Below, piece by piece: positions 23,524 through 40,818 of a DNA stretch of 47,996 bases. The notes beneath the pieces are model-generated. The model did not search any database. It was not told where the DNA came from and saw only the letters and a program-made list of their open reading frames with translations. The stretch spans positions 105,313 to 153,308 of the forward strand of contig CAISEW010000003.1 of the NCBI GenBank assembly GCA_903884455.1, read 5' to 3'. A program made the translations under genes and the position numbers. The DNA is from an uncultured Chloroflexota bacterium (GTDB lineage Bacteria > Chloroflexota > Dehalococcoidia > GIF9 > AB-539-J10). Position 1 is the stretch's first letter, and every line of letters starts with the position of its first letter.

Positions 23524-23524
23524 G

Positions 23525-24035: not shown

Positions 24036-24160
24036 TACCCCTCTTAAGATAAGAGGGGTAAGGGGAGTTATGAAGAATGCGCGCGGTGCTGAGCAAACAA
24101 CAAGATGATGCCCTAGGGAAATAACCCCCCTTAGATCCCCCCTTATTTTAAGGGGGGATA
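24036..24160 (+). repeat. Family B repeat, copy without the GC module
   Basis: Left hairpin CCCCTCTTAAGATAAGAGGGG, then AAGGGGAGTTATGAAG, a diverged centre, and right half with AACCCCCCTTAGATCC and CCTTATTTTAAGG. The junction GGTAAGGGGAGTTATG (24058-24073) corresponds exactly to the place where the copies at 27.1 and 36.3 kb hold an extra 33-nt palindrome. Confidence 0.75.
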
Positions 24161-24204: not shown

Positions 24205-24341
24205 GGATTGCCACGCACTTTCCAGGTGCTCGCAATGACACTCCTCCCTGTCATTGCGAGGCTGGCAACAACCAGCCGAAGCAATCTCAGAGATTCTTCG
24301 TTTCGCTCAGAATGACAGAGAGGGAAAGGGTTCGCAATGAC
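24205..24341. repeat. Family A elements, one half copy and one full copy
   Basis: 24205-24240 is a right half (GGGATTGCCACG, arm GCACTTTCCAGGTGC, CGCAATGACA). 24249-24317 is a full copy with first arm GGCTGGCAACAACCAGCC and a variant right end CTCAGAATGACA. Another right end (TTCGCAATGACA) lies at 24331-24342. With the family B copy these fill the gap between the tRNAs and the TackOD1 gene. Confidence 0.75.
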
Positions 24342-24382
24342 AAAAGGAGCGAAGGGCTCGCAAAGATAGTACCTTTCTCTCA

Positions 24383-24411
24383 TTGACTTCTGCAATATTC
24401 CGAATTATACT
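24383..24411 (+). promoter_or_regulatory. Sigma70-type promoter of the TackOD1-REase-like gene
   Basis: TTGACT (24383-24388), 17-nt spacer, TATACT (24406-24411), followed by GGAGG near 24429 and ATG 24440. Hexamers and spacing equal those of the clpC promoter. Confidence 0.72.
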
Positions 24412-24439
24412 TTTTTAACTACGTGAACGGAGGCAAGGT

Positions 24440-25801: not shown

Positions 25802-25870
25802 TCAGTAGTCAGTAGCCAGTAGTCAGAATCCAGCATTCAACATTCAGAATATTCCACTACGGACTACTGA
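25799..25870. repeat. Family C repeat (AGTCAGTAG tandem type)
   Basis: Tandem GTCAGTAGTCAGTAGCCAGTAG followed by CAGAATCCAGCATTC and ending with GGACTACTGA, which mirrors the start. Related copies lie at 38821, 45309 and, partly, 36429. Confidence 0.65.
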
Positions 25871-25890
25871 TCCCCTGTTTTTTAGCTTAG

Positions 25891-26147
25891 CCAATGAGAT
25901 TGCCGCGCTCCCGCCTGCCATAGCTGTGCGGCGGGCAGGTCGTTCGCAATGACATCTCTTCTTGTCATTGCGAGGAGCACAGCGACGAAGCAATCTCGGT
26001 GGGGCTGGTGGAATGGGGATTGCCACGCCCCGACAAGTCGGGGCTCGCAATGACACACGCTCCCTGTCATTGCGAGGCTGACTTTAGTCAGCCGAAGCAA
26101 TCTCGGTGGGGGGCAATAGAGATTGCCACGATTCGTTCACACTGACA
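25891..26147. repeat. Three family A elements in a row
   Basis: 25891-25954 is a right half containing the 30-nt GC module (25910-25939, reverse orientation). 25963-26055 is a full copy with second arm CCCCGACAAGTCGGGG. 26065-26147 is a full copy with first arm GGCTGACTTTAGTCAGCC and a worn right end. They lie between the TackOD1 gene and the pilin promoter. Confidence 0.8.
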
Positions 26148-26159
26148 ACCGCCTCCACA

Positions 26160-26262
26160 TCAAACGGTTTTGAATTTGGAATTTGGGAATTAGAATTTGT
26201 TTGGTATTTGGTGCTTGGAATTTAGGATTTGGAGCGGAGCGCCTTTGGGATTTGGGGAAAGG
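26160..26262. repeat. Family D repeat, copy 1
   Basis: An AT-rich stretch built on GAATTTGGAATTTGG, TTTGGTATTTGGTGCTTGG and the tail GGAGCGGAGCGCCTTTGGGA. It is about 90% identical by eye to 28197-28297. Confidence 0.65.
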
Positions 26263-26304
26263 GGCTGGTGGGGCTAATACTATCTTCCTATTACTGATGG
26301 GTGA

Positions 26305-26332
26305 TTGACGGCTACAAAAGCTGAGCTATACT
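26305..26332 (+). promoter_or_regulatory. Promoter of the major pilin gene
   Basis: TTGACG (26305-26310), 16-nt spacer, TATACT (26327-26332). The predicted transcript has a leader of about 135 nt that contains the duplicated segment described next. Confidence 0.6.
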
Positions 26333-26348
26333 ATACATATCCAATGAA

Positions 26349-26449
26349 TTACTGGAGCTAAACCCAGAAAAACCAAAGGAGGTGAAAGAAGCGCAGAGGA
26401 TAATATATCTATCAAATAGCTTACTGGAGCTAAATCCAGAAAAATCAAA
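26349..26449 (+). repeat. Direct repeat in the pilin leader
   Basis: TTACTGGAGCTAAAYCCAGA plus AAAAYCAAA occurs at 26349-26377 and 26421-26449, 72 nt apart, with two C/T differences. Similarity extends on both sides; each copy is followed by a GGAGGT-like site. The spacing is a multiple of three and both copies are open in the pilin frame, with the peptide LLELNPEK repeated. Confidence 0.8.
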
Positions 26450-26474
26450 AAATGGAGGTAAAAAGGAAAAAAGA

Positions 26475-26876
26475 ATGGAAAAATTTATGAAAATGATGCA
26501 CCGTGGAGAGAAGGGCTTCACCCTGATTGAACTGCTAATCGTGATTGCCATTCTGGGCATTATCGCCGCCGTGGTTATCCCCAACATCGCTGGCTTCTTG
26601 ATCTCGGGGCAAGTGGCGGCAGCCAACACCGAAGTGGAAAACGTCAAAACGGCGGAACTGGGTTACTTTGCTAACTATAATGTGTGGCCCGTTGATTCAA
26701 CCAACCTGACCGCGACCGGCTACATTTCAGGAGTCCTTAAGGCTGTCTACACGTTCGACACGAGCTATGGGTGGGCAACAAATGCGACTCCTACTGTTGG
26801 AGGTTGGAGCGGAATCGTGTTTACTGGGAGCGTTCCAGGTGCCTCAGGGCAGCACGGGCATTGGGCGAAAGCATAA
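26475..26876 (+). CDS. pilA: Type IV major pilin (class III signal)
   Basis: 133 residues. The leader ends at the prepilin peptidase site in HRGEKG|FTLIELLIV (Glu at +5), and the hydrophobic helix LIELLIVIAILGIIAAVVIPNIAGFL follows, then a small Ser/Thr/Gly-rich head domain. Start ATG 26475 is preferred because of AAGG about 8 nt upstream; the frame is open farther up to 26325. No prepilin peptidase gene is in the window. It stands on the opposite strand from the other pilus genes, with its own promoter and terminator, as expected for the most abundant pilus protein. Confidence 0.92.
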   Translation: MEKFMKMMHRGEKGFTLIELLIVIAILGIIAAVVIPNIAGFLISGQVAAANTEVENVKTAELGYFANYNVWPVDSTNLTATGYISGVLKAVYTFDTSYGWATNATPTVGGWSGIVFTGSVPGASGQHGHWAKA

Positions 26877-26918
26877 GAATCACATTAGGATGATAGTCAG
26901 GTGATGAGGAATAAGTTG

Positions 26919-26962
26919 CCGGCGGAGTCAGCGTTAGCTAACTCCGCCGGTAGGCGTTTTTA
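26919..26962 (+). terminator. Rho-independent terminator of the pilin gene
   Basis: CCGGCGGAGT (26919-26928) and ACTCCGCCGG (26941-26950) form a perfect 10-bp GC-rich stem; TTTTTAT follows at 26957. Confidence 0.88.
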
Positions 26963-27113
26963 TATTCAAGTAGGCAGGAGTCAGGAGTCAGCTAAAGAAA
27001 ATCTAAATCCCAAGTAACAAATCCCAAAGCCCTAAGCAATATCAAATGACAAAGCTCAAAGGACTAAACGGTTTTGCCACCTGAGCAATCTGATTTTATC
27101 AATTTTTCCAAAC

Positions 27114-27233
27114 TTGCCCCTCTTAAGATAAGAGGGGCAAGGCCTGCCCGCCGAACAAATTCTTTGGCAGGCGGGGGAGTTATGGAAATTATGAAAATAA
27201 CCCCCTTTAATCCCCCTTACTTTAAGGGGGAGA
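27114..27233 (+). repeat. Family B repeat carrying the 33-nt GC module
   Basis: CCCCTCTTAAGATAAGAGGGG, CAAGG, then the module 27143-27175 (CCTGCCCGCC, loop, GGCAGGCGGG), then GGAGTTATGGAAATTATG and the right half ending CTTACTTTAAGGGGGAGA. Apart from the module it aligns with the empty copy at 24036. Confidence 0.8.
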
Positions 27234-27309
27234 TTTAAGGGAAGAAGTAGTTTCGACATTTAAGCATTTGGATTTCAATTGTTATTTGGATTTTGGAATT
27301 TAGCAAATC

Positions 27310-27400
27310 AGATTGCCACGCTCCGCTCGCAATGACACCCTTCTGTCATTGCGAGGCACGACAGTGTCGAAGCAATCTCAGCGGCGGCAATGAGATTGCT
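27310..27400. repeat. Family A half elements
   Basis: Right half GATTGCCACGCTCCGCTCG plus CAATGACA (27310-27337), then a left half from 27344 (TGTCATTGCGAG, arm GCACGACAGTGTC, GAAGCAATCTC) that loses its right end. Confidence 0.7.
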
Positions 27401-27584
27401 AATCGCCTCCCTATTTGCTTGGTGGTCCCGGAAGAACCTCCCCCAGAAGTACTGGAGAGGCGAGGGATTTCTCCTTCTTTTACGACTAATACTATGAGAA
27501 AGGTAATAGTCCATTAATACTATGCGAAATACAGATGACTCTGCTGGCAATGAAGAGCGATTAGTGACCCCGGCGAGGGATTAC

Positions 27585-27790
27585 CGTGCTTTGCTCGCAA
27601 TGACACGCCCCCTCGTCATTACGGAACACACCCCCCTGTCATTGCGAGAGGAGAAGATTCCTCGCTTACGCTTCGGAACAGGCTCCGCGATCTCCCTGGA
27701 ACCAGGGGATTGCCACGCAGAGCTTACCCTGAGGAGAGGCGAGATTCTTCGGCCCGACAAGTCGGGGCGAAGAATTACAGGAGATGAAGA
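27585..27790. repeat. Worn mosaic of family A pieces
   Basis: Scattered CTCGCAATGACA, TGTCATTGCGAG, TACGCTTCGGAACAGGCTCC and CCCGACAAGTCGGG segments without complete outer pairing. Confidence 0.55.
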
Positions 27791-27988
27791 CCTCGCAACG
27801 ACACGAGAAGAGGCGAGGACAAGCCCTGCCCTTGAAGTTGAAAATGATGCAGCGGCGGAATTTATCTCCGCCTTACCCCAAACGGGGTCGAATTTGAAAA
27901 TTAGAATCTATTTAGGTATGTCCTGAGCGAAGGTGAGATTCTTGGTCTGCGGCTCAGAATGACACCCCCCTTGTCTCAGCTCCCTTTT

Positions 27989-28066
27989 GTCGTTGCGAGG
28001 CACGACAGTGCCGAAGCAATCTCGGTGGGGTACAATAAAGATTGCCACGCTCCGCTCGCAATGACA
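27989..28066. repeat. Family A element, full copy
   Basis: Ends TGTCGTTGCGAG and CTCGCAATGACA; first arm GCACGACAGTGC; inner GCAATCTC; second half ATTGCCACGCTCCGCTCG. Confidence 0.8.
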
Positions 28067-28075
28067 CACCCTTCT

Positions 28076-28160
28076 TGTCATTGCGAGGTACGGCAGTACC
28101 GAAGCAATCTCGGTGGGGTGCAATGGATTGCCACGCACCTTTCAGGTGCTCGCAATGACA
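28076..28160. repeat. Family A element, full copy
   Basis: Ends TGTCATTGCGAG and CTCGCAATGACA; first arm GTACGGCAGTAC; second arm GCACCTTTCAGGTGC. In the first arm both bases of a pair differ from the neighbouring copy (GCAC/GTGC versus GTAC/GTAC), so pairing is kept. Confidence 0.85.
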
Positions 28161-28196
28161 AAAACCGAAGGACTCGCAATGACAAACGGCTTACCC

Positions 28197-28297
28197 CAGA
28201 CGGTTTTGGATTTGGAATTTAGAAATTAGAATTTGTTTGGTATTTGGTGCTTGGAACTTAGGATTTGGAGCGGAGCGCCTTTGGGATTTGGAATTTA
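28197..28297. repeat. Family D repeat, copy 2
   Basis: Near-identical to 26160-26262, including TTTGGTATTTGGTGCTTGG and the tail GGAGCGGAGCGCCTTTGGGA. Confidence 0.65.
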
Positions 28298-28302
28298 GTG
28301 TG

Positions 28303-29382
28303 TTATGAGCTTGACTGTAGTTTTACGTTGCCGACGAGTTTTTCCACTTCCTGGCGGTCATTGCAGAAATCAAGCACGGTTTTGCCAGTGATGATGCTCT
28401 TAAGATAGAGGCTGACCAGGGCTTCGTCAAGCGAAATCATGCCCATTTCCCGGTGGGTACGGATGACATTAGGTAACTGGTAGATTTTGCCTTCACGAAT
28501 GAGGCTCTTCACTGCTGGATTGCCAAGCATAATTTCTACGGCGGCTACCCTCCCTGAGCCATCAGCCCGGGGCACGAGCACCTGACACAACGCAGCAACA
28601 AGTAGCGAAGCCAGCCGTGTCTGAGCCAGGTGGCGCTGATGAGGTGGGAACAGATCTATTATCCTCTCCATTGCCTGAGTAGCGCTGGGGGCATGGCCGG
28701 TAGTTAATATAAAGTGCCCGGTCTCAGCTACGGTAAGGACAGCGTCGGCAGTCTCCGGATCTCTCATTTCCCCGACCAGAATCACATCCGGGTCCTGCCT
28801 TAAGATATGCTTTAGAGCATTGTCAAAGGATAGGGTATCAGAGCCCAACTGACGCTGGGTCACAGAACACTTAATGCTAGGGTAAACATATTCTATGGGG
28901 TCTTCAATAGTAACCACATGACGGGTCTCATGAGTATTCAAGTGCTGAATCATAGCTGCCAGGGTGGTAGTTTTACCACTGCCGGTAGGTCCAGTAATTA
29001 CTACCAGTCCTCTGGGTTTCATGGCCAGCTCTTTACATATCTGGGGCAGCTCCAGTTCATCTATGGTGGGGATTTTTGGTGGCAGCAAGCGCACGGCCAG
29101 GCTGATAGACCCGCGCTGCTGAGCGGCATTGCATCTCAGACGACCGACATCAGGTAAGGTATAGCCAAAATCAAGCTCCAGCTGGCGGTGGTAGTATTCT
29201 CTCTCCTCAGGCGTGGTTAGCTGGAGAAAAGCTTCATTTATATCCTCAGAAGTTAGTGCAGCTACACCGTTTGCTGATTCCAGGGAGCCGTCGATGCGGA
29301 ACGCTGCCGGGCTGCCAGCAACCATATGCAAATCGCTCGCCCTCCTTGACTTACCTACCCGAAGCAGTGCAAAAATATCCAT
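28303..29382 (-). CDS. pilT: Type IV pilus retraction ATPase PilT
   Basis: 359 residues. N-terminal PAS-like domain with ASDLHMVAGSPAAFRIDG, Walker A GPTGSGKTTT, the Asp box TIEDPIEYVYP, Walker B DPDVILVGEMRDPETA and the His box with HFILTTGHAPSA. It powers pilus retraction (twitching, DNA uptake). AAGG is 8 nt before ATG 29382. It is the last of the minus-strand pilus genes. Confidence 0.95.
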   Translation of the reverse strand: MDIFALLRVGKSRRASDLHMVAGSPAAFRIDGSLESANGVAALTSEDINEAFLQLTTPEEREYYHRQLELDFGYTLPDVGRLRCNAAQQRGSISLAVRLLPPKIPTIDELELPQICKELAMKPRGLVVITGPTGSGKTTTLAAMIQHLNTHETRHVVTIEDPIEYVYPSIKCSVTQRQLGSDTLSFDNALKHILRQDPDVILVGEMRDPETADAVLTVAETGHFILTTGHAPSATQAMERIIDLFPPHQRHLAQTRLASLLVAALCQVLVPRADGSGRVAAVEIMLGNPAVKSLIREGKIYQLPNVIRTHREMGMISLDEALVSLYLKSIITGKTVLDFCNDRQEVEKLVGNVKLQSSS

Positions 29383-29519
29383 ATCTTTTGCCTTCTATGG
29401 TCAACCGCTGATTTATAGTATATCTGAGTATATTTATAATATAGTGTAAGCTGCCTTCACCCTTATTGTCAATATCCCATTAGTAATAGTGATAAAGTCC
29501 TAGCCTCACCGTATTAGGG

Positions 29520-29625
29520 TGTCATTGCGAGCGACCTGCCCGCCGCACAGCTATGGCAGGCGGGAGCGCGGCAATCTCATTATCTCCACGAGATTGCTTC
29601 GGCACTATCGTGCCTCGCAACGACA
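29520..29625. repeat. Family A element with GC module, copy 1 of a pair
   Basis: TGTCATTGCGAG, CGA, 30-nt GC module (29535-29564), AGCGCGGCAATCTC, centre, GAGATTGCTTCG, arm GGCACTATCGTGCC, TCGCAACGACA. The arms are in the opposite order to the 28-kb copies. The 406-nt gap between the surface protein and pilT is mainly this pair. Confidence 0.85.
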
Positions 29626-29634
29626 GAGAGAGGG

Positions 29635-29740
29635 TGTCATTGCGAGCGACCTGCCCGCCGTACAACTATGGCAGGCGGGAGCGCGGCAATCCCATGCCCC
29701 TCACCGAGATTGCTTCGTCGCTATGCTTCTCGCAATGACA
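29635..29740. repeat. Family A element with GC module, copy 2 of a pair
   Basis: Tandem neighbour of the previous copy: module at 29650-29679 with a changed loop (GTACAACTAT), and second arm CGTCGCTATGCTTCTCG instead of GGCACTATCGTGCC. Confidence 0.85.
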
Positions 29741-29788
29741 GGGGGGAGGGCTCCCCCCAATGGCGCTCCTTTAATAGCGATATATTCC

Positions 29789-31327
29789 TTACCTTATCAA
29801 GAGAAAGCGAACCAGCGCGATGATGGCCACCGCTATTGCAGTTATGATAGCAATGAATCCCCATAGGGGTAGGAGTCCGGCTCGGAAGGAACGGGCCGCG
29901 GTCCAGGCGCCTGCATTCTCTGCGCCATCCACGGCTTGCACAATCCAGTAGTAGGTGCCATAAGGCAGGGCTCTTGTCTCCTCCAGGGTATAGTTCGTTC
30001 CGACTATGCCCGCAACCGAAACTATGGGGTCAACGAATCCTCCAGTGGCGGTGACGTCAGTACTGGCTGCTATTTGCAGGCTATAGCGAACTCCACTGTC
30101 ATCGGATACTGCTGACCATTCAAATGTTGGCGTCACCCTGCCCACAAGCCCCACCATGCTTCCGTGGGATGGTGAAATGAGCATTGGTGTGTCCGGAGGG
30201 TCTGATTCCATGGTGAAGGTGGCAGTGGCATCGGTTCCCGCAGCATCCTCGGCTGCTACCTCGCGCTCGCCATATTGGCTCTCGGGCACGACAAAACTTG
30301 TCACAAAGCTGCCTTTGCCGTTGGTCCTGGCTGTCGCTACCTGGCTACCATCGTACTTTATGACCACATCTCTGTTGGCGGCAAATCCACGGCCAGTGGC
30401 GGTCAAGTCTATGCCCACGTATCCTCCTTCAAGAGACAACACGATGCCAGGCTCTATCTTGAAGTTGAGTGCGCTGACGTCTTCTTTCATGGTCTGCTCT
30501 CCCTCGGCGGTGACGCTATATGGGCCTGCGGGCACCTCGGGCACCTCGAAGCTCCCCTCCCAGTCACCTTGAGAATCGGCTTTGATGCCCGTGACTATTG
30601 CCTCTCCATGAAACAATATCTGAATGCCACTCTCGTAGGCCGCAAATCTGCTGCCTGTCATTGTTATGCTTTCGCCCACAATGCCCGATGATTTATCTAC
30701 GCTTATCTCCGCCGTTATTTTAAAGATGGCATCTTCGACATCGTATAGCTTACTCTCAGCACCCTGGGCGTCTAGCTTGTGTTCTCCCCTGGTAGACGTG
30801 GGAATTGAGAAACTCGTTTTCCAACTGCCCTTGTCATTCGCTGTGATATTCCCTTCTATCGTTTTGTAGTTGCCATCGAGGTAATACCTCAGTTCGATGC
30901 CTGTTTCATTCTGGGCAAAGCCCTGTCCTTTCACGGTAACATTAGTGCCCACAGGACCTTCTTCGGGATTTACCATCAACCTCGGCTTCACGGTAAAGTA
31001 GGTATCCATTTCAACAGTCCCTATGGAGGTTCCTACCACAGCGAGCACTTTATGGTCTCCCTTACAGCCTTCGGGAATGGTGATGGTGATTGCGAAATTT
31101 CCGTTGATATCGGTACTGCCTGTGGCTATGCTGGTCCCATCATAATAGATGTCAACATATGCGTTCTCATGAAAATATTGACCATTGACGGCGATATTTA
31201 TTCCGGGGACTCCCGAGGTGGAGGAGAGCTCAATAGAAGGACACAAGGCTTGTGCAGGCACAACCGGCAGGGCAATGGCGATGAAGCAGACGACAAGAAC
31301 GATGGCCAGTTTTAGCAGCAATTTCAT
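29789..31327 (-). CDS. Secreted or membrane-anchored protein with IPT/TIG-like repeats
   Basis: 512 residues: Sec signal peptide (LLKLAIVLVVCFIAIALPVVPAQA), four IPT/TIG-like immunoglobulin repeats (each with GxxGxxxTxxGxxF, a YDG-type strand and GSW or GSF), a domain with PDTPMLISPSHG and FEWSAVSDDSGVRYSLQI resembling fibronectin-like modules, and a C-terminal helix (LPLWGFIAIITAIAVAIIALVRFLL) ending in Arg. It should be displayed outside the membrane. Its place between pilMN and pilT suggests an adhesin or pilus-associated surface function, but that is inference. Confidence 0.8.
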   Translation of the reverse strand: MKLLLKLAIVLVVCFIAIALPVVPAQALCPSIELSSTSGVPGINIAVNGQYFHENAYVDIYYDGTSIATGSTDINGNFAITITIPEGCKGDHKVLAVVGTSIGTVEMDTYFTVKPRLMVNPEEGPVGTNVTVKGQGFAQNETGIELRYYLDGNYKTIEGNITANDKGSWKTSFSIPTSTRGEHKLDAQGAESKLYDVEDAIFKITAEISVDKSSGIVGESITMTGSRFAAYESGIQILFHGEAIVTGIKADSQGDWEGSFEVPEVPAGPYSVTAEGEQTMKEDVSALNFKIEPGIVLSLEGGYVGIDLTATGRGFAANRDVVIKYDGSQVATARTNGKGSFVTSFVVPESQYGEREVAAEDAAGTDATATFTMESDPPDTPMLISPSHGSMVGLVGRVTPTFEWSAVSDDSGVRYSLQIAASTDVTATGGFVDPIVSVAGIVGTNYTLEETRALPYGTYYWIVQAVDGAENAGAWTAARSFRAGLLPLWGFIAIITAIAVAIIALVRFLLIR

Positions 31328-31458
31328 CCCACTAAGCCACCTGCTAATATTTGGTGAACTCCTTTCTTTGTTGGTCCTTCATAATCCTCGTGTTCTCGCT
31401 ATTATAAACAAAAAGGCGGCTCGCCATGACCTTTATGCCGCCATTTCTGCAAATGACT

Positions 31459-32886
31459 TTATTTTGTTAAGGAGAACGTAAAACTAAACTCGCCTTCACC
31501 ACCGCTGATGGAGGAAATCCAGACTTGCGAAAATCTCCCGCTCGCCCTTAAATCTCGAGCATAACTAAAAATGCCATCATTTGAACCCACCCCGTTCACA
31601 GTTACTGAGCTGCCCCCATCATTGACATTGCTCAAGGTTACCTTATCTGCCGCCAGGCTTACAATCTGGGTCAAGTCGTCGTAAAACGTGGCCCGCCGCT
31701 CTTCCATAGTAGTAATTCTGCTATCAAGCTCACTGGCAGTAGCTTCTAGCGACCCAACCTGTGCACCCAATGCCGCTACTTCACTCTGCTTTTGGGTAAC
31801 ACTGTTCTGAGCAAGTACCAGGTTGGAACGCAATGTCCCAGTCTGAGCGCGATTATACTGGACAAAAATTACTCCGAAGATAATCAGCCCGATACCAATG
31901 ACAATACCCACGGGGACAAGGACTCGTGCTATAGAGAAACCCGGGGGCACATAGACCTCAGGCAGGACATTGAGATTCACTGATGAAAAGTTAGCTCCTG
32001 CCTTTTCTGTCAGTAGTTCCTTGAGAGCCAGCCCGATATTGACCAAGAATTCGTTGGGGTTGAAGCCCTCGGGGAGTTTCACAGGTGAGGGCAACGGTGA
32101 CACCACATAGCCGCCTGTCTGGCTACCCACTAATTGCCAGGCCTCCGGTGCTTCTGCCAGGTCGCCGCAGACAAACACAGGTACAGTTGCATCTAAAGGC
32201 TTTTCCATGTGGCTGGAATTATAAAAGGCCACAGTCCTCTTGAACTCTTCAGCGATAAGCGGCAGCCTTTCCTCTAAAGATTCAGCCTCGCCGGGCAGGG
32301 ATAACCTGCGGATGACCTGGGGGAGCCTGTCTGCTATAACCATAATATCCAGGTGCTCTAACCGGGCATTTACGATGATTGCTCTGGGCTCATTCGGGAT
32401 TCGGCACAGGGCTAAAGGAGCTAAGTCCAGAATATATGGCCTGACACCGGCCTGATGTAGCGTTCTGACCAGAGCATCAACCAGATTACGGGGGAAGGTG
32501 ACCAGGAAAACACGACCTTCTCCTCTCGGGGCAGGAAGGCGCTGATATGAAAAGTAAACTTCTTCTAAAGGCGTTGGTATCGTTCTCCTTGCCTCGCGCT
32601 TTATTGCCTCAGGCATTATAGCTTCAGGCAGTTCGGGCAGGGTTATGATACGATACAGAGAATCATGTCCGCTTAAAGCAGTGATAACCTTGTTTGCCTT
32701 TGCTCCCGTCTCTTTAAATAGCTGTTTAACCCTGTCGGCTACCTGGGCCTCATCAACAATGAGCCCCTGGCTAACCAGACCGGGCTCCAGTGGTAAACTA
32801 GCCCACTTTTCTACCTGTTCGCCCTTCATTACCAGCAGGTTAACGCTGGTATCTCTGATAAATAAAGTGGTAACTTTTTTCGCCAT
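31459..32886 (-). CDS. Fused PilM-PilN-type pilus assembly protein
   Basis: 475 residues. The first ~300 are a PilM/FtsA-like actin fold: LFIRDTSVNLLVMKGEQVEKW, SGHDSLYRIITLPELP, EAIKREARRTIPTPLEEVYF, and the truncated second half. Then comes one membrane helix (VLVPVGIVIGIGLIIFGVIFVQY, about 325-347), a coiled coil (NSVTQKQSEVAALGAQVGSLEATASEL) and a small C-terminal domain as in PilN. In most bacteria these are two genes; here one polypeptide spans cytoplasm and exterior, as in GspL. SD AAAGG; 6 nt after the PilO-like stop. Confidence 0.82.
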   Translation of the reverse strand: MAKKVTTLFIRDTSVNLLVMKGEQVEKWASLPLEPGLVSQGLIVDEAQVADRVKQLFKETGAKANKVITALSGHDSLYRIITLPELPEAIMPEAIKREARRTIPTPLEEVYFSYQRLPAPRGEGRVFLVTFPRNLVDALVRTLHQAGVRPYILDLAPLALCRIPNEPRAIIVNARLEHLDIMVIADRLPQVIRRLSLPGEAESLEERLPLIAEEFKRTVAFYNSSHMEKPLDATVPVFVCGDLAEAPEAWQLVGSQTGGYVVSPLPSPVKLPEGFNPNEFLVNIGLALKELLTEKAGANFSSVNLNVLPEVYVPPGFSIARVLVPVGIVIGIGLIIFGVIFVQYNRAQTGTLRSNLVLAQNSVTQKQSEVAALGAQVGSLEATASELDSRITTMEERRATFYDDLTQIVSLAADKVTLSNVNDGGSSVTVNGVGSNDGIFSYARDLRASGRFSQVWISSISGGEGEFSFTFSLTK

Positions 32887-32892
32887 GCTTAT

Positions 32893-33435
32893 TTAACCTT
32901 TATAGCTATAAATATCCACACTGATGGCAGCTACTGCTCCTGTGTCCCCGAAATCTATACTTACACTATTCACCTCAGCGCTCCACGCTTGCCGAAAACC
33001 ATCACCAGTTCTTAGAGCGTTGATAAAGTCCAGTATGTTATTCACATCACCCTGAACCACCATTGAAAATGAGAAGACAGAATAGGTAACAGCCCCTGCT
33101 GTTCTGGCAGTCGGCATTGAGGGGCTGAGCTGGGTTAACTCCACATTACAATCGTCAGCAATATTAAATAAGTCCTCACCGTATTCAATGCTCTCCACTG
33201 ATTCAGGGAATTTTACCCGGCTCGCCTCAAGCAATGATTCGGCTGCATTCAGTTTGTTTTGCTGGTCGCTTTCCTGAATAGTGAGCTGGTGCAAGAGAGC
33301 TTGCTGCGCCGCCAGGCTGGTTCTCAATTGGTCCTGCTCTTTAACCTGCTGGGTGTAGATTCTCACCAGGCTGACGAGGGCAATAACGAAAATGACAGCC
33401 CCTAAAATCAGCCAAACTTTCCTACTTATCTTCAT
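32893..33435 (-). CDS. PilO-like pilus assembly protein
   Basis: 180 residues: short cytoplasmic start, one helix (VWLILGAVIFVIALVSLVRIY), a coiled coil (KEQDQLRTSLAAQQALLHQL through NKLNAAESLLEAS) and a ferredoxin-like C-terminal domain with FSFSMVVQGDVNNILDFINALR, the region most conserved in PilO/GspM. It precedes the PilM-PilN fusion, the reverse of the usual M-N-O order. It should pair with the PilN part of the fusion to make the inner-membrane platform. Confidence 0.82.
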   Translation of the reverse strand: MKISRKVWLILGAVIFVIALVSLVRIYTQQVKEQDQLRTSLAAQQALLHQLTIQESDQQNKLNAAESLLEASRVKFPESVESIEYGEDLFNIADDCNVELTQLSPSMPTARTAGAVTYSVFSFSMVVQGDVNNILDFINALRTGDGFRQAWSAEVNSVSIDFGDTGAVAAISVDIYSYKG

Positions 33436-33527
33436 AACCTACTCAGCTTTCTCGTAATATACCATCATCTAAAAAGCCTGTCTAGTGGTTGTCCTCATTC
33501 ATATGATTAGTGACACTTCGTTCGTAA

Positions 33528-33568
33528 TGAGATTGCCACGCCCCGACAGGTCGGGGCTCGCAATGACA
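33528..33568. repeat. Family A right half element
   Basis: GAGATTGCCACG, arm CCCCGACAGGTCGGGG, CTCGCAATGACA; the left half is missing. It lies in the 219-nt gap between the PilX-like and PilO-like genes. Confidence 0.7.
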
Positions 33569-33654
33569 CGGAAGGTTACTACCCAATGTTACAAACATAT
33601 AAAGTGTCACCCATCTATCTGAACTAGCTCACAATCATCCAGGACTCTTATCCT

Positions 33655-36240
33655 TCATCCAATAATCTTTATCGCGTAATTTGTTATGACACCGCCCGGC
33701 CCCAGCTCGCTGCGAAACTGGAGAAGCATATATGACATGGTAAAGCCATCGGTTCCAGTGGGAACGTTTATCTGAGCCGAGACATCCATTGGCTTCAAGA
33801 TTTGGCTAGCCCAGGTGACAAAGAACTGGTCTATATCTATCCCTGCGTCGGTCGGCAGGCTAATCGAGTTGCCGTTCCAGACGTCGGGTAATACCGTACC
33901 ATCGGGTAGCGCGACGCCATTCACTTTGAAGCGGTCCTTACAGTAGCAGTTGCCAGAGGAGCCGTCGGCTTTGTCCCCCTCACCCACCATAACGGTGATT
34001 CGCGCAGCATTCGTTTCGCCCGGGGTTTGTGGCGGCACCAGAAAGCCGCTGACGGTGCCGCCGGCGTTGCCGTCATTATCCCAGTCGGGATCCGTAAGTG
34101 GACAGCTCGAGCCCCCGTTCCAGCCGAAGAAGAAATGAAAACCCGCGGTGTCGATATCGTAGAGATAAAACTGATGATTGTACACCGAAGCGCAGTGGTA
34201 GAGGATTAACAGCGACCAGCCGGCATGCGCGGCGGTGTACCGTGTGGCCGGGTTCGAGCTCGGTGCCGGAGTGCCCAGAGGGTAGCCGGTGGAGCCACCG
34301 CCCGTAGCAAAGCTGAATAAATAGGTCGGGTCTGCCTGATTAGGCGCTGCCACATGGCCGAGGGTATAGGTGCCGGCGCCGTTGGAGGCGATGGTGCCGT
34401 TGCCTATCCACGCCTCCAGCAGGTTGGTAACATCAGCCTTGCACGTGTAGTACCATGTCCCTTCATATCCTGTGCCAGGGAACGCGTCGGGGTACAGGGT
34501 CTGCCAGTCGTGCGTCGTGACGAGGGTGTCAGTGCTGCTGCCACCCTTGAAATATACTTTGTTGACGCGAGAGGTATTCTCAACCAGGACTTGCAGGTCT
34601 GCCTGCGTGGGAGCATTTGGGTACTTTAAGGTGGAACCCCAAGCTGCTACGGCATAGACCTGAGTCAGCCTGATGGTCGGAGAGGCATCGTTAGAAGAAA
34701 CTCCGAAACTTTGCAACGCATTAGACCCGACGCCGTTTATATCATCTTTCGTCCACGCACTATTTGTTCTGGGGTTCGTCGTCCAGGTATAGCTGATGGT
34801 GCCATAGCTGGACGGCACTTCAGTGTATGTGCCGTAATAATCGTTTCCACCTACCTTAATCCACGGCCGCATAGTGTTGGTTCCGGAGCTAGAGTCCCTT
34901 GCCACCAGAGATACCGTCAGGCTTTTTATTACCTCGCCAGTTGGCACGTTAACGTTGAAAGCCGGGAAGCTAAACAGGGCAGAACCACTGGTTGTGCCAT
35001 GCAACAAGTAGGTAGTATCACCATCATGCGCACCCACTTCGTCCACATAGCTGTACATATTCGTGGTCTTGTCCCATGTCCCGCTGCGAGAGATATCACC
35101 CGACGGGTAGCGAGTCTGGCTTCCGGAGTTTGGTGGGTTATAGGTGTTCCAGTCTATCCAGCCCGTCCAGTAGAGGTAAGCGGCGTCAATCGTGGCGTCT
35201 GACGGGATGCCCAGGGTATCATCAACATCGTTGGTGGCGATTGTGGCTGGGGTGGACCTGTAAAGCAGGTAATGGATGTTATCCGGAGGATTCTCCATGC
35301 CTCCGATGAGGCTGTTGCCGGTGCCATAGTAATCGCCTGATACGGCAGACTTGAGTTTGCGGAACTTGGTTTTGCCACCATAGGCATCAATCCGGATTCC
35401 GCCGGCTACCGACACAATCTTATAAAGCCGGATAGTGTCATCCCAGCTATAATGATAAGTAGTACCGGGAACCCCCGTGGTATCAACCCAGGAAGCCACA
35501 AGCTCGGGAATCTGCCCCTGCGGTCCCGTGTATTTGAAGGTGAATATTTTCACCAGCGGGTTGCCAGAACTACCACCGGTAAACTGACTAAGAAGAGGCG
35601 GAGAGGTAAAGTTCCAGACCACAGCACAGCCGCCGTTACTGATGGAAATAGTCGGGGCGCGGTACCATGTTTGGCCCTGAAGGCTGCAACTGCCGCTATA
35701 TTCGGTATACTCGAAGCCGGAGGACAGCCATACCCCTAGCGTCTTTACAGTCAGGGCATTCGAGCCCTGCCAGTAATAAACTATCTTGACGTCGTATGTG
35801 GAGGCGGCGGCGTCAGGATAGCCGATTATCATCAGCTTCTCATCACCAATAATTTGTTGCGCTGTTGTAGAATTTGGGGCAGATATACTCGTGGGAAGCC
35901 AGAAATTATGAATAGTAACAGTCACATTTTTGCCGTTTACAAATAATTTATACGGATAGGTATAGTTGGAAAAAAAGTCATACTGGTTATAGCCGACACT
36001 GCTGAGTAAGTCATCCATGGTGTCATACCTTATGCGCCACATGGCATCCTCAACACCGGCATCGGCGGCATAAATCTCACAATCCTTCTGTTCATAGACT
36101 CGACCAGTTGCAATGCCGGTGCGCATAAAACTCAGAGTGGGCGTGACGATAAGCGTGCCTATAAGGAGCAGGAGCAGGGTAAGGATCAGTGCCTGCCCCT
36201 TTTCATCTCTTGCTAATCTTTTCACGGCAATTTTCCTCAC
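33655..36240 (-). CDS. Large PilX-like pilus protein with adhesin-type ectodomain
   Basis: 861 residues. The N-terminus DEKGQALILTLLLLLIGTLIVTPTLSF is a PilX/GspK-like membrane helix preceded by a possible prepilin-type site (EKG|QALIL). A very large Ser/Thr/Gly/Tyr-rich exterior part follows; near 640-780 the run AAHAGWSLLILYHCASVYNH, a VSGFLVPP segment and VMVGEGDKADGSS resemble DUF3344-type adhesin modules. Minor pilins are usually below 250 residues, so this one is unusual. The gene looks more GC-rich than its neighbours. Start GTG 36240 is weakly supported. It may present a binding tip on the pilus (inference). Confidence 0.75.
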   Translation of the reverse strand: MRKIAVKRLARDEKGQALILTLLLLLIGTLIVTPTLSFMRTGIATGRVYEQKDCEIYAADAGVEDAMWRIRYDTMDDLLSSVGYNQYDFFSNYTYPYKLFVNGKNVTVTIHNFWLPTSISAPNSTTAQQIIGDEKLMIIGYPDAAASTYDVKIVYYWQGSNALTVKTLGVWLSSGFEYTEYSGSCSLQGQTWYRAPTISISNGGCAVVWNFTSPPLLSQFTGGSSGNPLVKIFTFKYTGPQGQIPELVASWVDTTGVPGTTYHYSWDDTIRLYKIVSVAGGIRIDAYGGKTKFRKLKSAVSGDYYGTGNSLIGGMENPPDNIHYLLYRSTPATIATNDVDDTLGIPSDATIDAAYLYWTGWIDWNTYNPPNSGSQTRYPSGDISRSGTWDKTTNMYSYVDEVGAHDGDTTYLLHGTTSGSALFSFPAFNVNVPTGEVIKSLTVSLVARDSSSGTNTMRPWIKVGGNDYYGTYTEVPSSYGTISYTWTTNPRTNSAWTKDDINGVGSNALQSFGVSSNDASPTIRLTQVYAVAAWGSTLKYPNAPTQADLQVLVENTSRVNKVYFKGGSSTDTLVTTHDWQTLYPDAFPGTGYEGTWYYTCKADVTNLLEAWIGNGTIASNGAGTYTLGHVAAPNQADPTYLFSFATGGGSTGYPLGTPAPSSNPATRYTAAHAGWSLLILYHCASVYNHQFYLYDIDTAGFHFFFGWNGGSSCPLTDPDWDNDGNAGGTVSGFLVPPQTPGETNAARITVMVGEGDKADGSSGNCYCKDRFKVNGVALPDGTVLPDVWNGNSISLPTDAGIDIDQFFVTWASQILKPMDVSAQINVPTGTDGFTMSYMLLQFRSELGPGGVITNYAIKIIG

Positions 36241-36278
36241 TTCAGCTCGCTATTATACCAGATATTAGGTGTTTCCTT

Positions 36279-36350
36279 CATAACTCCCCCGCCTGCCAAA
36301 GAATTTGTTCGGCGGGCAGGCCTTGCCCCTCTTATCTTAAGAGGGGTACC
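36279..36350 (-). repeat. Family B left part with the 33-nt GC module
   Basis: The reverse complement of 36279-36350 matches the 27114 copy through GCAAGG, the module (36288-36320) and GGAGTTATG; the right half of the element is absent. It lies just upstream of the PilX-like gene. A partial family C run is at 36429-36461. Confidence 0.8.
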
Positions 36351-36488
36351 TGTTACTAGATAACAGTATAGCGTAATCATCCTTAGCGTCAATAGCCCGT
36401 TAGTACTGGCATTGACCTACCGCATATAAGTAGTCAAGAGTCAGGAGCCAGTAGTCAGCCGCCTAGATTTGAAATTCCCACAAATTAC

Positions 36489-36740
36489 CTATTTGTACAC
36501 ATCTCCCCTCGGAGATATCCTGAACACTAGCACAGTTTTATTAAACTTTGTAAATAGCACCCTGTACCTACCCACCCTGATCCTGTAAACATCCTTTTCA
36601 CCTTGTACAGGCTTTAAATCCAGCTCTAAACCTTCAGATAATCTAAGAAGAGCAATATCAACCAAGCTCTTGTATTCCTTGGGTAGCTTCTTATACTGCT
36701 TGGCTGCTTCTCTGGAAAACTTTATTTCAAATCTTCCCAA
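36489..36740 (-). CDS. RelE/ParE-family toxin
   Basis: 83 residues: FEIKFSREAAKQYKKLPKEYK at the N-terminus and YRIRVGRYRVLFTKFNKTVLVFRISPRGDVYK at the C-terminus, the standard RelE/ParE beta-sheet pattern. RelE relatives cut mRNA on the ribosome and ParE relatives poison gyrase; which applies is not clear. Start TTG 36740 lies inside the antitoxin gene (19-nt overlap), so translation is coupled. Confidence 0.9.
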   Translation of the reverse strand: MGRFEIKFSREAAKQYKKLPKEYKSLVDIALLRLSEGLELDLKPVQGEKDVYRIRVGRYRVLFTKFNKTVLVFRISPRGDVYK

Positions 36741-36925
36741 TTGATAATCTCACCTTTCTCATGCTCCTTTAAAGCTTCCTTATACGATGTCTCTTCTTCA
36801 TCAGTTAAAGGAGAGGTATCACTTTGGATTAACATTTTTGAAAATATTTCCATTAGAATATTTTCAGGTAATCCTTTAAGCATCGCTATAATGCTATCTT
36901 CAGATATCGAGACTGTCTTTGCCAT
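36722..36925 (-). CDS. Antitoxin partner of the RelE-like toxin
   Basis: 67 residues, acidic C-terminus (DEEETSYKEALKEHEKGEIINWEDLK). The short MAKTVSISEDSIIAMLKGLPE start is not a clear DNA-binding fold. It is called an antitoxin because it overlaps the toxin gene, is of typical size, and ends in the acidic helix that usually wraps the toxin. A strong GGAGGTG precedes ATG 36925. Confidence 0.82.
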   Translation of the reverse strand: MAKTVSISEDSIIAMLKGLPENILMEIFSKMLIQSDTSPLTDEEETSYKEALKEHEKGEIINWEDLK

Positions 36926-37021
36926 TTTCCACCTCCATTTGTAGAAATATTATACCATTTCTATCTGTCTCCGCTGTATTTCCTTCAGCCCGTAGGGGTG
37001 GGACTTGTCCCCACCCAGGGC

Positions 37022-37180
37022 GGCGTGGCAATCTATATTGCCCCCACCGAAATTGCTTCGGCACTGTCGTGCCTCGCAACGACAGGGGGGATGTCATTGC
37101 GAGCGACCTGCCCGCCGCTTGCCTTCGCTGAAGCTTTAGCGCAAGCAGGCACAGCTATGGCAGGCGGGAGCGTGGCAATC
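37022..37180. repeat. Family A pieces, one with an enlarged GC module
   Basis: 37022-37084 is the right half (GTGGCAATCT, centre, AATTGCTTCG, arm GGCACTGTCGTGCC, TCGCAACGACA). 37092-37180 is a left half with TGTCATTGCGAG, CGA and a 62-nt module (37107-37168), which is the 30-nt module plus a 32-nt nested palindrome at its tip (CGCTGAAGCTTTAGCG). Confidence 0.82.
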
Positions 37181-37217
37181 CCCTTGGCTAAATTCCAAAT
37201 TCCAAAACCCAAATTTC

Positions 37218-37451
37218 TCAGGAAAGATTTTGCCACTCCGGCAAGGAAATCTTCCTTCCCATAATCTGTTCCGCTTCCTTGAGAAGTGCCTTGAGCTGGG
37301 GCACAGAATATTCAGCATTGTTGGGAATAGCCAGGGTATGCGTCCCATAACGCATATAAAAGTGATGCCCACCTGGCTCAGGTGGGCTAAAACCTAATCC
37401 AACTAATTTCCTTACAAAAACTCTTCGTTTACACGGTGCCCATTTAGCCAC
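37218..37451 (-). CDS. HicA-family toxin
   Basis: 77 residues. RRVFVRKLVGLGFSPPEPGGHHFYMRY fits the HicA dsRNA-binding-like fold with the catalytic His in GGHHF, followed by HTLAIPNNAEYSVPQLKALLKEAE. HicA toxins cut mRNA. GTG 37451 overlaps the last codons of hicB by 8 nt. Confidence 0.85.
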   Translation of the reverse strand: MAKWAPCKRRVFVRKLVGLGFSPPEPGGHHFYMRYGTHTLAIPNNAEYSVPQLKALLKEAEQIMGRKISLPEWQNLS

Positions 37452-37707
37452 GGGCTACAGTTTCCTCAAGCATTGGTATGCCCTTGTTTAAGTCGAGTCC
37501 ATCTATAACAGGCAAGTGGTCACCATGCCTTATCTTGACCAGTAGCCACCCTTCGAGAACCGATCTCAGCTCAATTTGGCACTGATAAAGCGTTTCACCA
37601 AAAGCAATTGTCCCATGGCATTCAGGAATCTTGCCGCAATAGGTACCATCTTCCAGCTTCTCATACATAGCTTTGCTCATCGCTCGCTCAACGTACTCGG
37701 TCAGCAT
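37444..37707 (-). CDS. HicB-family antitoxin
   Basis: 87 residues from ATG 37707, chosen because GGAGGG lies just upstream; a longer frame to 37827 runs into a family A repeat. The partial RNase H-like HicB fold is seen in YEKLEDGTYCGKIPECHGTIAFGETLYQCQIELRSVLEGWLL. No C-terminal DNA-binding domain is visible. The antitoxin-first order and overlap with hicA are common in such modules. Confidence 0.85.
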   Translation of the reverse strand: MLTEYVERAMSKAMYEKLEDGTYCGKIPECHGTIAFGETLYQCQIELRSVLEGWLLVKIRHGDHLPVIDGLDLNKGIPMLEETVARG

Positions 37708-37788
37708 GATTATCCCTCCACAGGAATTATATATAAGCCAGCGAACACTGTCAAAAGAAGCTGTTACAAGTGTAAGTGAAGAATCACG

Positions 37789-38031
37789 CCGAGATTGCTT
37801 CGGCACTATCGTGCCTCGCAACGACAAGGAGGGACGTCATTGCGAGCGACCTGCCCGCCGCTTGCCTTCGCTGAAGCTTTAGCGCAAGCAGGCACAGCTA
37901 TGGCAGGCGGGAGCGAAGCAATCTCTGATTGCCCCCATCGAGATTGCTTCGGCACTATCATGCCTCGCAACGACAAGGGGGGGGTGTCATTGCGAGGAGC
38001 CGCAGGCGACGAAGCAATCTCGCCGCGGTGT
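37789..38031. repeat. Three family A elements filling the hicB-DUF104 gap
   Basis: 37789-37826 is a right half with GGCACTATCGTGCC. 37836-37975 is a full copy with the 62-nt enlarged GC module (37850-37911). 37985-38031 is a left half with arm GGAGCCGCAGGCGACG. The rest of the 410-nt gap shows nothing I recognise. Confidence 0.82.
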
Positions 38032-38117
38032 GTGGCGAAGGGCATAAAAAATGGAGCCGCCCTCATTTTACTTTGACATTCAGTCCCGGTTCTTGCTACG
38101 CTTCCATAAAGGCGATA

Positions 38118-38336
38118 ATGATGCCGCAAAGGATTCACGTAATCTACGAAAACGGGGTTCTCAAGCCGCTGGGCAAAGTGGATATTGCTGAACACCGGAC
38201 ATTAGAAATCCTCGTTCTCGAAGACGACTTGCCCTTGTCTGTTATCGGCCGGGTGGCAGAGCAAGGTGGCAGCTACGATTTCCTGCACCATGCTGCTGAG
38301 GACATTTACAGTGCTGATGATAGAGAGGCAGTCTAA
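38118..38336 (+). CDS. DUF104-family antitoxin
   Basis: 72 residues: RIHVIYENGVLKPLGKVDIAEHRTLEILVLEDD is the DUF104 beta-sheet core, and DIYSADDREAV the usual C-terminus. Tandem ATGs at 38118 and 38121. DUF104 proteins are antitoxins, usually of PIN-domain toxins; here the overlapping partner is PemK/MazF-like. Confidence 0.8.
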   Translation: MMPQRIHVIYENGVLKPLGKVDIAEHRTLEILVLEDDLPLSVIGRVAEQGGSYDFLHHAAEDIYSADDREAV

Positions 38337-38700
38337 GCGCAAGCCAGAAGCTGTGCTCGAACGCGGAGATATTGTTCTTGTCCCTTTTCCCTTTACCGAC
38401 CTGACCACTGAGAAGTTGCGGCCAGCAGTTATAATATCTGTGAACCCGCGGAGAATTGATGTTATCATCGCTTTTATCTCTTCCGTAGTCTCTCACGGAG
38501 AACTATCTGAAACTGATTATCTGCTGCACCAGGACAATCCTGATTTTGTCAAAACGGGTCTCAAGAAAACCTCGACTTTCAGAATGAGAAAATTGCTGAC
38601 CATCGAGCGAAGTAGAATCATTCGCCGTCTCAGCAGAGTCAGCCCTGCTATCCAGAAAGAACTGGACATAAGGCTAAGGCAGGCTGTTGGCCTGCAGTGA
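38317..38700 (+). CDS. PemK/MazF-family toxin
   Basis: 127 residues from ATG 38317, overlapping the DUF104 gene by 20 nt. RGDIVLVPFPFTDLTTEKLRPAVIIS is the MazF/PemK N-terminal signature; STFRMRKLLTIERSRIIRRLSRVS is the later conserved part. These toxins are sequence-specific endoribonucleases. Third toxin-antitoxin pair within 2.3 kb. Confidence 0.88.
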   Translation: MIERQSKRKPEAVLERGDIVLVPFPFTDLTTEKLRPAVIISVNPRRIDVIIAFISSVVSHGELSETDYLLHQDNPDFVKTGLKKTSTFRMRKLLTIERSRIIRRLSRVSPAIQKELDIRLRQAVGLQ

Positions 38701-38820
38701 TGCATCCACCCTGCCTTTGCAGGGAGCCCTGACGAGCGAGGGCGACAAAGGAATCCCATTGACTAGATTCCAAATTTCAAAATTCAAATGACAAATCTTA
38801 AGCCAAGTAGTAGCAACAAG

Positions 38821-38870
38821 AATACAGAATCCAGTAGTGAAATCTTCTGACTACTGACTACTGTCTACTA
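38821..38870. repeat. Family C repeat fragment
   Basis: CAGAATCCAGTAGTGAAATC followed by TTCTGACTACTGACTACTG; related to the copies at 25799 and 45309. Confidence 0.55.
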
Positions 38871-38917
38871 ATTTCGGGATTTGGATTTCTTGGATACTGC
38901 AGGGGTGGGGCTTCGCC

Positions 38918-39220
38918 CTAGACCCACATCATACCAGGCATCATCATCATCCTGTATGTCGTCACCCTGGGCTCTTCTATTAGAAGTGTTTCAGCTTGCA
39001 GGAGCAGTTCTTGCGTTATACTTGATTGTGCCCATAACTTCCAGTCATCAAGACTCTCCCATGTGCTTACCATGGCGACGACAGAGGCATTCTCCTCGCT
39101 GACAAGATTCTCGATGCCTTTGAAGCCCTGATATTGCGTAGCATGCGACTTGAGCTTGAGCAATATCGGCTCCAGGTCCCTGTCCCCCCTCACCTTGCAT
39201 CCTACTATACCCTTTATCAT
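38918..39220 (-). CDS. Antibiotic biosynthesis monooxygenase (ABM)-fold protein
   Basis: 100 residues with the dimeric ferredoxin-like ABM pattern: KGIVGCKVRG, LKSHATQYQGFKGIENL, ASVVAMVSTWESLDDWKLWAQS. Family members include small heme-degrading or quinol monooxygenases; no function can be assigned here. A near-perfect AAAGGAGG precedes ATG 39220. It sits alone in the toxin-antitoxin and repeat island inside the pilus region. Confidence 0.78.
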   Translation of the reverse strand: MIKGIVGCKVRGDRDLEPILLKLKSHATQYQGFKGIENLVSEENASVVAMVSTWESLDDWKLWAQSSITQELLLQAETLLIEEPRVTTYRMMMMPGMMWV

Positions 39221-39362
39221 TCCGCCTCCTTTGTGCTCTTGCCTGCATAAGCTCCGCAGGGGCGGGGCTCGTCCCCGGCCGAGATACTTCCTATCATCAT
39301 AATTATAGCACAGTCAACAAGCTTCAACTGCAAAGACGGGGGCGTCTTTGCGTGGCCAATTT

Positions 39363-39413
39363 CCTCTCCCTTGACCTGCTCGCCGTATGACTTCAGCAGG
39401 CGAGTGGGAGAGG
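39363..39413. repeat. CCTCTCCC/GGGAGAGG palindrome with a variant GC module
   Basis: CCTCTCCC and GGGAGAGG enclose TTGA and a 30-nt module (39375-39404) with arms CCTGCTCGCC and AGCAGGCGAG. The geometry equals the module in families A and B, but with one left-arm and two right-arm changes. Confidence 0.7.
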
Positions 39414-39446
39414 ATTAAGGTGAGAGTGAATTGTAAGGACTTTGCG

Positions 39447-39746
39447 AGTGAGGCGCGGCAATCTCTATTGCCCCACCGAGATTGCGGAGCCTGTTCCGAA
39501 GCGTAAGCGAGGAATCTCGCTTCTCACAATGACAAGGGGGTGGTGTCATTGCGAACACCTGAAAGGTGCGTGGCAATCTCTACTGCCCCACCGAGATTGC
39601 TTCGTCCCGATAAATCAGGACTCGCAATGACAGAAGGGGGGATGTCATCTTGAGCCCTTTCCATTTTGTCATTGCGAGCGAAGCGTGGCAATCTCTATTG
39701 CCCCCACCGAGATTGCTTCGGCTGACTTCGCCAGCCTCGCAATGAC
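39447..39746. repeat. Three family A elements before the PilW-like gene
   Basis: 39447-39534 has arm CGGAGCCTGTTCCG and a variant end. 39544-39632 has first arm GAACACCTGAAAGGTGCG. 39667-39746 has TGTCATTGCGAGCGAAGCGTGGCAATC without any module and second arm GGCTGACTTCGCCAGCC; it is the empty-site counterpart of the copies at 29.5 and 37 kb. A diverged family D stretch follows at 39768-39835. Confidence 0.82.
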
Positions 39747-39924
39747 GAGGGTGTTATTGCTCTAAACTGTTTTGGACATTCGTATTTTGGGCTTTGATAT
39801 TGTTTGGGATTTGGTGCTTGGGATTCAGGATTTCCCCCTCAAGGCCTGGGAGTCAGGATTTCCTACCTTCTGCCCTTTAATCATCCTCACGGGTAGGGCA
39901 GGGAGGCTATGCAACACACGGTTA

Positions 39925-40818
39925 TTATGAGACTGGTTTGGGCACAACTATATATGTCCTCGTTTCATTCTCTTGTTGCTGACCGGCGCCTGCTGTGGCT
40001 GTTACCGTGAGGATAAGCCCATTAGCGCTACTGAGCGTAGCAGGATTTGCACCGCTATCTACGGTTATGGCAGCAGTGGCAGCCTTAGTTTCGGACGTCC
40101 AGCTACCTTTTGTGTTAGAACTAGTGGCAGTAACTGTAATAGTGTCCCCAGTGGTGTTTGTTGTCCAGGTATAGCCGCCCGTAACTGAGACATAGGTAGC
40201 GTTGCCAGTTTTGGTGAGCGAGACGCTGCCACTAACAATTATGCTGCCGCTGTCAGATGTCGCCCCACCGGTAATCTTGAACGCATCACCAACATCAGGC
40301 AAGCTAAAGGCACTGCCACCACTAATTTGACAATTAGTTTTAGTTGTGTTGGAAATAAACGCAAACACAGGAATCTTACCAGTTTTCACTGAATTAAAGA
40401 CATCATTGACATAATAACTCCCCCTGAGACCAGAGCTAGTCAGGTTAAACACAACTTTCTGCTTTTGACTCGTGTCAAAATCGATCCAGCACATGATAAG
40501 GGGGAAACCTGAAACTCCAGTTATCGTCGTGTTTTGAGCCGAGTAGTCATAGAAGCTAACCCAATAGCCAGCCTCCTGCACTTGCCTGACAACAGCCATA
40601 TGGTGAGAGCTACGGCTACTCCCGGTAAATATCTGGGAAATAACCATGGTAACAGCTGCGGCGATAAGACCGACAATAGCGATACCTACCATTAGCTCAA
40701 GTATAGTAAAACCCTTCTGGCCTTTCTTTAGCTTTTTCATCTTCATTTGTTTAAGATTCAGCCGCGACCCTACAGAAATTCCCAATCTCAAGCTCCCATT
40801 TATAATTTGGGATTTCAT
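39925..40818 (-). CDS. PilW-like minor prepilin
   Basis: 297 residues from ATG 40818, or about 271 to 273 if ATG 40746 or 40740 is used. Prepilin site GQKG|FTILELMVGIAIVGLIAAAVTMVISQIF, then a large beta-rich domain with many Ser/Thr/Gly. The first 24 codons look like family D filler sequence, so the inner start is attractive, but the ribosome site (GAGGT) fits the outer one. It follows the PilV-like gene by 24 nt. Confidence 0.85.
   Translation of the reverse strand: MKSQIINGSLRLGISVGSRLNLKQMKMKKLKKGQKGFTILELMVGIAIVGLIAAAVTMVISQIFTGSSRSSHHMAVVRQVQEAGYWVSFYDYSAQNTTITGVSGFPLIMCWIDFDTSQKQKVVFNLTSSGLRGSYYVNDVFNSVKTGKIPVFAFISNTTKTNCQISGGSAFSLPDVGDAFKITGGATSDSGSIIVSGSVSLTKTGNATYVSVTGGYTWTTNTTGDTITVTATSSNTKGSWTSETKAATAAITVDSGANPATLSSANGLILTVTATAGAGQQQENETRTYIVVPKPVS

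Follow-up and report, generated by a model that had tools for sequence, protein, structure and literature searches.

The short GC-rich palindromes M1, M2 and M3 probably form one family of non-autonomous mobile elements of about 27-33 nt, each consisting of a CCTG tag and a GC-rich palindrome and mobilised in trans. For M1, mobility is almost certain, judging from the comparison of filled and empty sites in related sequences. The stretch of 47,996 nt that we analysed (the window) lies within contig C3 of its genome (own genome, 1.56 Mb, 63 contigs, 99.5% complete). About half of this genome was sampled as stretches (778 kb) for the counts of module forms, host copies and 4-mers.

M1 has the form CCTGCCCGCC-loop-GGCAGGCGGG and a length of 27-33 nt. 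Copies with exact arms occurred 13 times genome-wide, whereas the reversed-pattern control gave none. In the window, there were 12 arm matches with at most one mismatch; the expectation from shuffles was 2.9, and none of the shuffles gave as many as 12. The loops were few and recurring (GCACAGCTAT, GTACAACTAT/TTT, GAACAAATTCTTT and AAGGCTT). An earlier note on this DNA had placed M1 copies in the window, and every one was found at its position (Table 1), as were the matching empty sites that it had described for the repeat families A and B. However, the spacing of 10-13 nt that it gave between the arms does not apply at 37107 and 37850, where the spacing is 42 because the 32-nt palindrome M2 sits inside M1. 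Furthermore, what it took for a variant of M1 at 39375-39404 is a separate sister module, M3, which was found again elsewhere in the genome. High-GC genomes do yield chance matches to the pattern, but chance GC-rich palindromy is a negligible explanation here. In the own genome it was refuted by the reversed control, the exact filled/empty pairs and the loops matching across genomes. The module is a real insertion unit. An Rfam search returned tRNAs only; seven tRNA genes are clustered at 23235-23926 of the window, directly upstream of the repeat-rich stretch. A 293-nt direct repeat is present in three diverged copies at 18667-20188.

Table 1. Modules and empty sites in the window (^, insertion point or junction).
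Feature	Position	Strand	Context
M1, loop GCACAGCTAT	25910..25939	-	family A arm, ACGA^AGCG
M1, loop GAACAAATTCTTT	27143..27175	+	family B, AAGG^GGAG
M1, loop GCACAGCTAT	29535..29564	+	family A arm, GCGA^AGCG
M1, loop GTACAACTAT	29650..29679	+	family A arm, GCGA^AGCG
M1, loop GAACAAATTCTTT	36288..36320	-	family B, AAGG^GGAG
M1, loop GCACAGCTAT, interrupted by M2	37107..37168	+	family A arm
M2, 32 nt, CCTGCTTGCGCTAAAGCTTCAGCGAAGGCAAG on - strand	37118..37149	-	in M1 at CCGCCG^CACAG
M1 interrupted by M2	37850..37911	+	family A arm
M2 inside M1	37861..37892	-	
M3, 30 nt, CCTGCTCGCC...GGCGAG	39375..39404	+	inside CCTCTCCC-TTGA^TGGGAGAGG palindrome
Empty family A site GCGAGCGA^AGCGTGGC	39674..39689	+	junction 39681/39682
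Empty family B site GAGGGGTAAGG^GGAGTTATG (AAGG^GGAGTTATG)	24053..24072	+	junction 24063/24064

All three modules share a common design, with a palindrome of variable loop directly after the 5' CCTG tag: CCTG-CCCGCC...GGCGGG in M1, CCTG-CTTGC...GCAAG in M2 and CCTG-CTCGCC...GGCGAG in M3. Their boundaries are fixed because the modules interrupt one another at definite points, with one base ambiguous for M2. M1 had been called a palindrome, which holds for its CCCGCC...GGCGGG part, but its arms, taken whole, do not form a true inverted repeat; the apparent arm mismatch arises because the CCTG tag precedes the palindrome. In the 778-kb sample, the asymmetric form was found 13 times and either perfect form not at all. 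Among the 4-mers that precede hairpins in the same sample, CCTG showed the highest enrichment, mainly owing to M1 itself.

Insertion was reciprocal: M2 and M3 were found in M1 and M1 was found in them, with up to four layers. Within one genome, the family A tip was empty or held M1 alone, M1 enclosing M3, M1 enclosing M2 and M3, or M1-in-M2-in-M1. The palindrome hosting M3 was empty in four copies and filled in one (778-kb sample). The idea that hairpins grow on existing hairpins was thus met with in nested stacks, where palindromes are inserted into palindromes. Family A tips at 23800-40000 of the window also hold other small palindromes (CCCCGACTTGTCGGGG, GGCTGACTTTAGTCAGCC, GCACCTGAAAGGTGC, GTCCCGATTTATCGGGAC), some of them nested in each other; several types of tip thus exist, of which M1 is one.

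The window's own intergenic M1 sites were not cleanly alignable in four relatives (G003, G006, G007 and G013). These regions turn over too fast, and gene-borne sites were therefore used for the filled/empty comparison. In polA (CCCCA^AATG), a 30-nt M1 was present in the own genome and in G007, and the site was empty in 11 relatives. In mfd (CTATA^TCGG), a 27-nt M1 occurred in G003 only and 11 relatives were empty; this junction was read off the sequences, and the aligner gap lies a few bases away. In G003, dnaX contained 32 nt and a single compensating base; G007 had a decayed copy, and the other aligned relatives were empty. In dnaE2, a dnaE paralogue matching the error-prone polymerase model, we found a 111-nt nested stack in G002 (sequence order M1, M3, M3, M1) and a decayed 54-nt version in G015, while six relatives were empty. 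Alignment with the relatives revealed neither target-site duplication nor loss of target bases at the polA and mfd junctions, and these exact empty sites bear out the earlier remark that no target-site duplication is evident. As far as sequences can tell, the pattern of many empty and few filled sites in polA and mfd favours insertion, not excision. Spread by insertion, which had also been suggested, is backed by the exact pairs in relatives and phages. The polA gene of G018 (L149) contains a different, GTAG-tagged palindrome, GTAGGGGCGGGTCTTGTACCCGCCC, a little downstream of the M1 site; this repeat reached its highest numbers in G013 (10) and G018 (7), which both have Y1 transposases. Comparisons with PDB structures contributed little, as the alignment of pyrB starts right behind the module, and the polA module lies in a poorly aligned stretch following the 5'-nuclease domain.

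Copies were also present in phages. The same M1 loops occurred in IMG/VR contigs, where phage portal genes had M1 at three positions, polymorphic for presence and absence, with up to three in-frame copies per gene (loci L344, L349, L353, L355, L356 and L360). The portal gene of L349 contained an entire family A arm together with M1, in frame. A single portal-gene M1 separated two phage contigs of 97.8% identity, and some insertions (or losses) are therefore recent. It is likely that phages carry M1 between species.

These sites bear on the view that M1 entered families A and B long ago, in a single event or a few, and that all later spread was by copying or gene conversion of the filled repeats. 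The loop type does follow the host family (GCACAGCTAT in A, GAACAAATTCTTT in B). However, polA, mfd, dnaX, dnaE2 and the portal genes hold single-copy insertions of independent origin, and one loop (AAGGCTT) was found in family A, family B and genes alike, which makes such a history very improbable. Copying of filled repeats is contradicted as the sole process, but it is still a contributor: families A and B each have mainly one loop type, and the spread of filled repeats therefore accounts for some of the copies in the window.

With regard to the target, a purine was found at -1 in 36 of 40 distinct short-loop sites (binomial p 2e-7), and M1 was inserted in either orientation. Families A (GCGA^AGCG) and B (AGG^GG) were struck at an identical point in several genomes, and B-like sites were struck at that same point in other phyla too. 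Insertion at hairpin tips, as the earlier note had it, holds as a mild tendency and fails as a rule. In the folding test, a stable tip was predicted at 38% of short-loop sites, a value partly inflated by related family A sites, versus 19% of random positions. In the strict test, 6.5% of lower-GC sites reached p<0.05, which is no clear enrichment. Hairpin tips as a required target were rejected on this result, on the position of M3 in the stem arm of M1, and on polA, where the strict test found no hairpin at the insertion site. Such features could also be read as template switching at replication forks that copies hairpins between places with no dedicated enzyme, since every unit is a hairpin, units are nested and tips are mildly preferred. 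We consider this rather unlikely: variable ends would be expected, but the edges are exact and do not differ between unrelated targets, the CCTG tag does not vary, and polA and other sites have no evident homology to the donor flanks.

The gene-borne copies kept the reading frame. All 16 lengths listed from lower-GC genomes were divisible by three (dnaX with 32+1), and those of high-GC chance matches were mixed; this signal is supportive and not independent, because the list came from open frames, which excludes frames broken by a module. Replication/repair genes held 9 of about 19 gene-borne insertions, related ones counted once: polA, mfd, dnaX, dnaE2, a DnaD-domain gene, a RecB/UvrD-like helicase gene, PcrA, uvrC and a DEDD exonuclease gene. 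Among 20 control genes with high-GC chance matches none was a recognised replication/repair gene, and 8 were without a family match. The excess (Fisher p 0.0004) makes a preference for replication/repair genes a strong lead, not proof, because the category was picked with the data already in view, annotation of the control genes is poorer and some long-loop memberships are uncertain. GTAG and CGTC REPs have been reported to show a like intragenic bias, their copies favouring Pol I, Uvr, RecBCD and DnaE2 genes (PMC3733652). The bias of short palindromes for repair genes described in 2013 was reproduced with a different tag and in other phyla, which makes it testable on large genome sets.

Of the 20 genomes examined in the genus, five carry M1, one of them being the own genome. 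Among 400 sampled Chloroflexota, convincing matches were obtained only in this genus, the five others being single and mostly long-loop. The GTDB genome scan matched at least 119 stretches, and among the matches listed were Bacteroidota (with the identical loop GCACAGCTAT and the near-identical GAACAAGTTCTTT), Patescibacteria, Ignavibacteria and Omnitrophota. Some high-GC matches are surely due to chance. As cross-phylum matches were identified solely by exact arms, it is less certain that copies whose loops measure 16-22 nt belong to the family.

The REP-associated Y1 transposase to which the earlier note had pointed was not there: PF01797 had no match in the own genome, and searching all five M1 carriers of the genus, of which four are incomplete drafts, yielded no Y1 transposase. 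A mover of this (IS200/IS605-like) kind would suit the size, the tagged asymmetric palindrome, the absence of target duplication and the copies in repair genes, all of which match GTAG/CGTC REPs (PMC3733652), and Y1 genes do exist in five other species of the genus. However, those five species have no M1 (an anticorrelation which across the 20 genomes is not significant, Fisher p 0.27), and the own genome holds its 13 copies without PF01797. Moreover, the M1 foot has no GTAG, and the true GTAG repeat of the genus, GTAGGGGCGGG...CCCGCCC, was commonest in two Y1 carriers. It is therefore unlikely that M1-M3 are REP elements moved by a Y1 transposase. A reverse transcriptase was rejected as the mover, since RVT_1 was present in one of five carriers and did not track M1. 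The own genome has a reverse-transcriptase domain match at G000:C41:150882-151310 (L326), which the other M1 carriers lack. With no Y1 found in the carriers and reverse transcriptase not tracking M1, we infer another trans-acting enzyme, probably not of the Y1 family. Such an enzyme would recognise a folded single strand with the CCTG foot and join this strand to target DNA that is itself single-stranded, replication forks being one example, a movement akin to that thought for GTAG-tagged REP elements via Y1 transposases; filled copies would in part spread passively as composites by families A and B. Single-strand joining by a CCTG-recognising enzyme fits because there is no target duplication, the ends are exact, the tag lies at the hairpin foot and terminal inverted repeats are missing, and we give it an even chance.

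In a broad sense M1 is a short palindromic insertion element (REP/RPE-like), being a short asymmetric palindrome that is dispersed, mobile and in some copies in frame. It is not a MITE: no target duplication was seen at polA or mfd, and its asymmetric ends are not terminal inverted repeats. The closest descriptions are those of GTAG and CGTC REPs, palindromes of 20-40 nt that carry a tetranucleotide tag on one side and of which some lie within other palindromes; CGTC repeats are likewise without a dedicated transposase (PMC3733652). In contrast, the tag of M1-M3 is CCTG, neither GTAG nor CGTC, and stands at boundaries fixed by insertion; these modules interrupt one another in stacks, have exact empty orthologues and lack Y1 in the carriers examined. 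Rickettsia palindromic elements (RPEs) are in-frame insertions in protein genes, among them genes of replication/repair (PMC10969869; PMC3733652); they are described as about 150 bp long, and RPE-4 and RPE-6 carry CGTC (PMC3733652). The likeness, compared by description only, lies in in-frame palindromes in replication/repair genes, whereas M1 is 27-33 nt and occurs in several phyla. We know of no report of mutual nesting of RPEs. REPINs are also miniature mobile palindromes, but they are tied to RAYT (Y1), which is absent from M1 carriers (PMC3116915). Mitochondrial GC clusters and repetitive hairpin elements are alike in being short, GC-rich or hairpin-forming and mobile; they merge, can sit in genes, and their enzyme is not established (PMC4478555, PMC2800124). 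However, they belong to organelle DNA, and yeast GC clusters have a putative target duplication, which M1 lacks. The cyanobacterial small dispersed repeats of Elhai and colleagues (2008) are reportedly very small, mobile and in some cases inside other repeats, a likeness by description.

We tentatively suggest, with more doubt than confidence, that CCTG palindromes might be a third superfamily beside GTAG and CGTC, with their own enzyme and an in-frame preference for replication/repair genes across phyla. If so, a common mechanistic or selective cause would be indicated, for instance a coupling of insertion with repair synthesis, or selection acting on changes in repair. These elements offer a clean comparative system for the smallest mobile DNA, and for the question of how it can move when no transposase is evident: their empty sites are exact, some phage insertions are recent and the nested stacks record the order of events. 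Literature searches on the M1 arm strings gave no related paper, judged by title, and those on two family A strings gave no paper with both. Palindromic elements of small size are already known, including some that lie in genes or within other palindromes. What is new, as far as the literature searched shows, is the CCTG-tagged set, its reciprocal nesting at boundaries known almost to the base, the pairing of filled with empty sites in core genes and in phages, and the reach across phyla.
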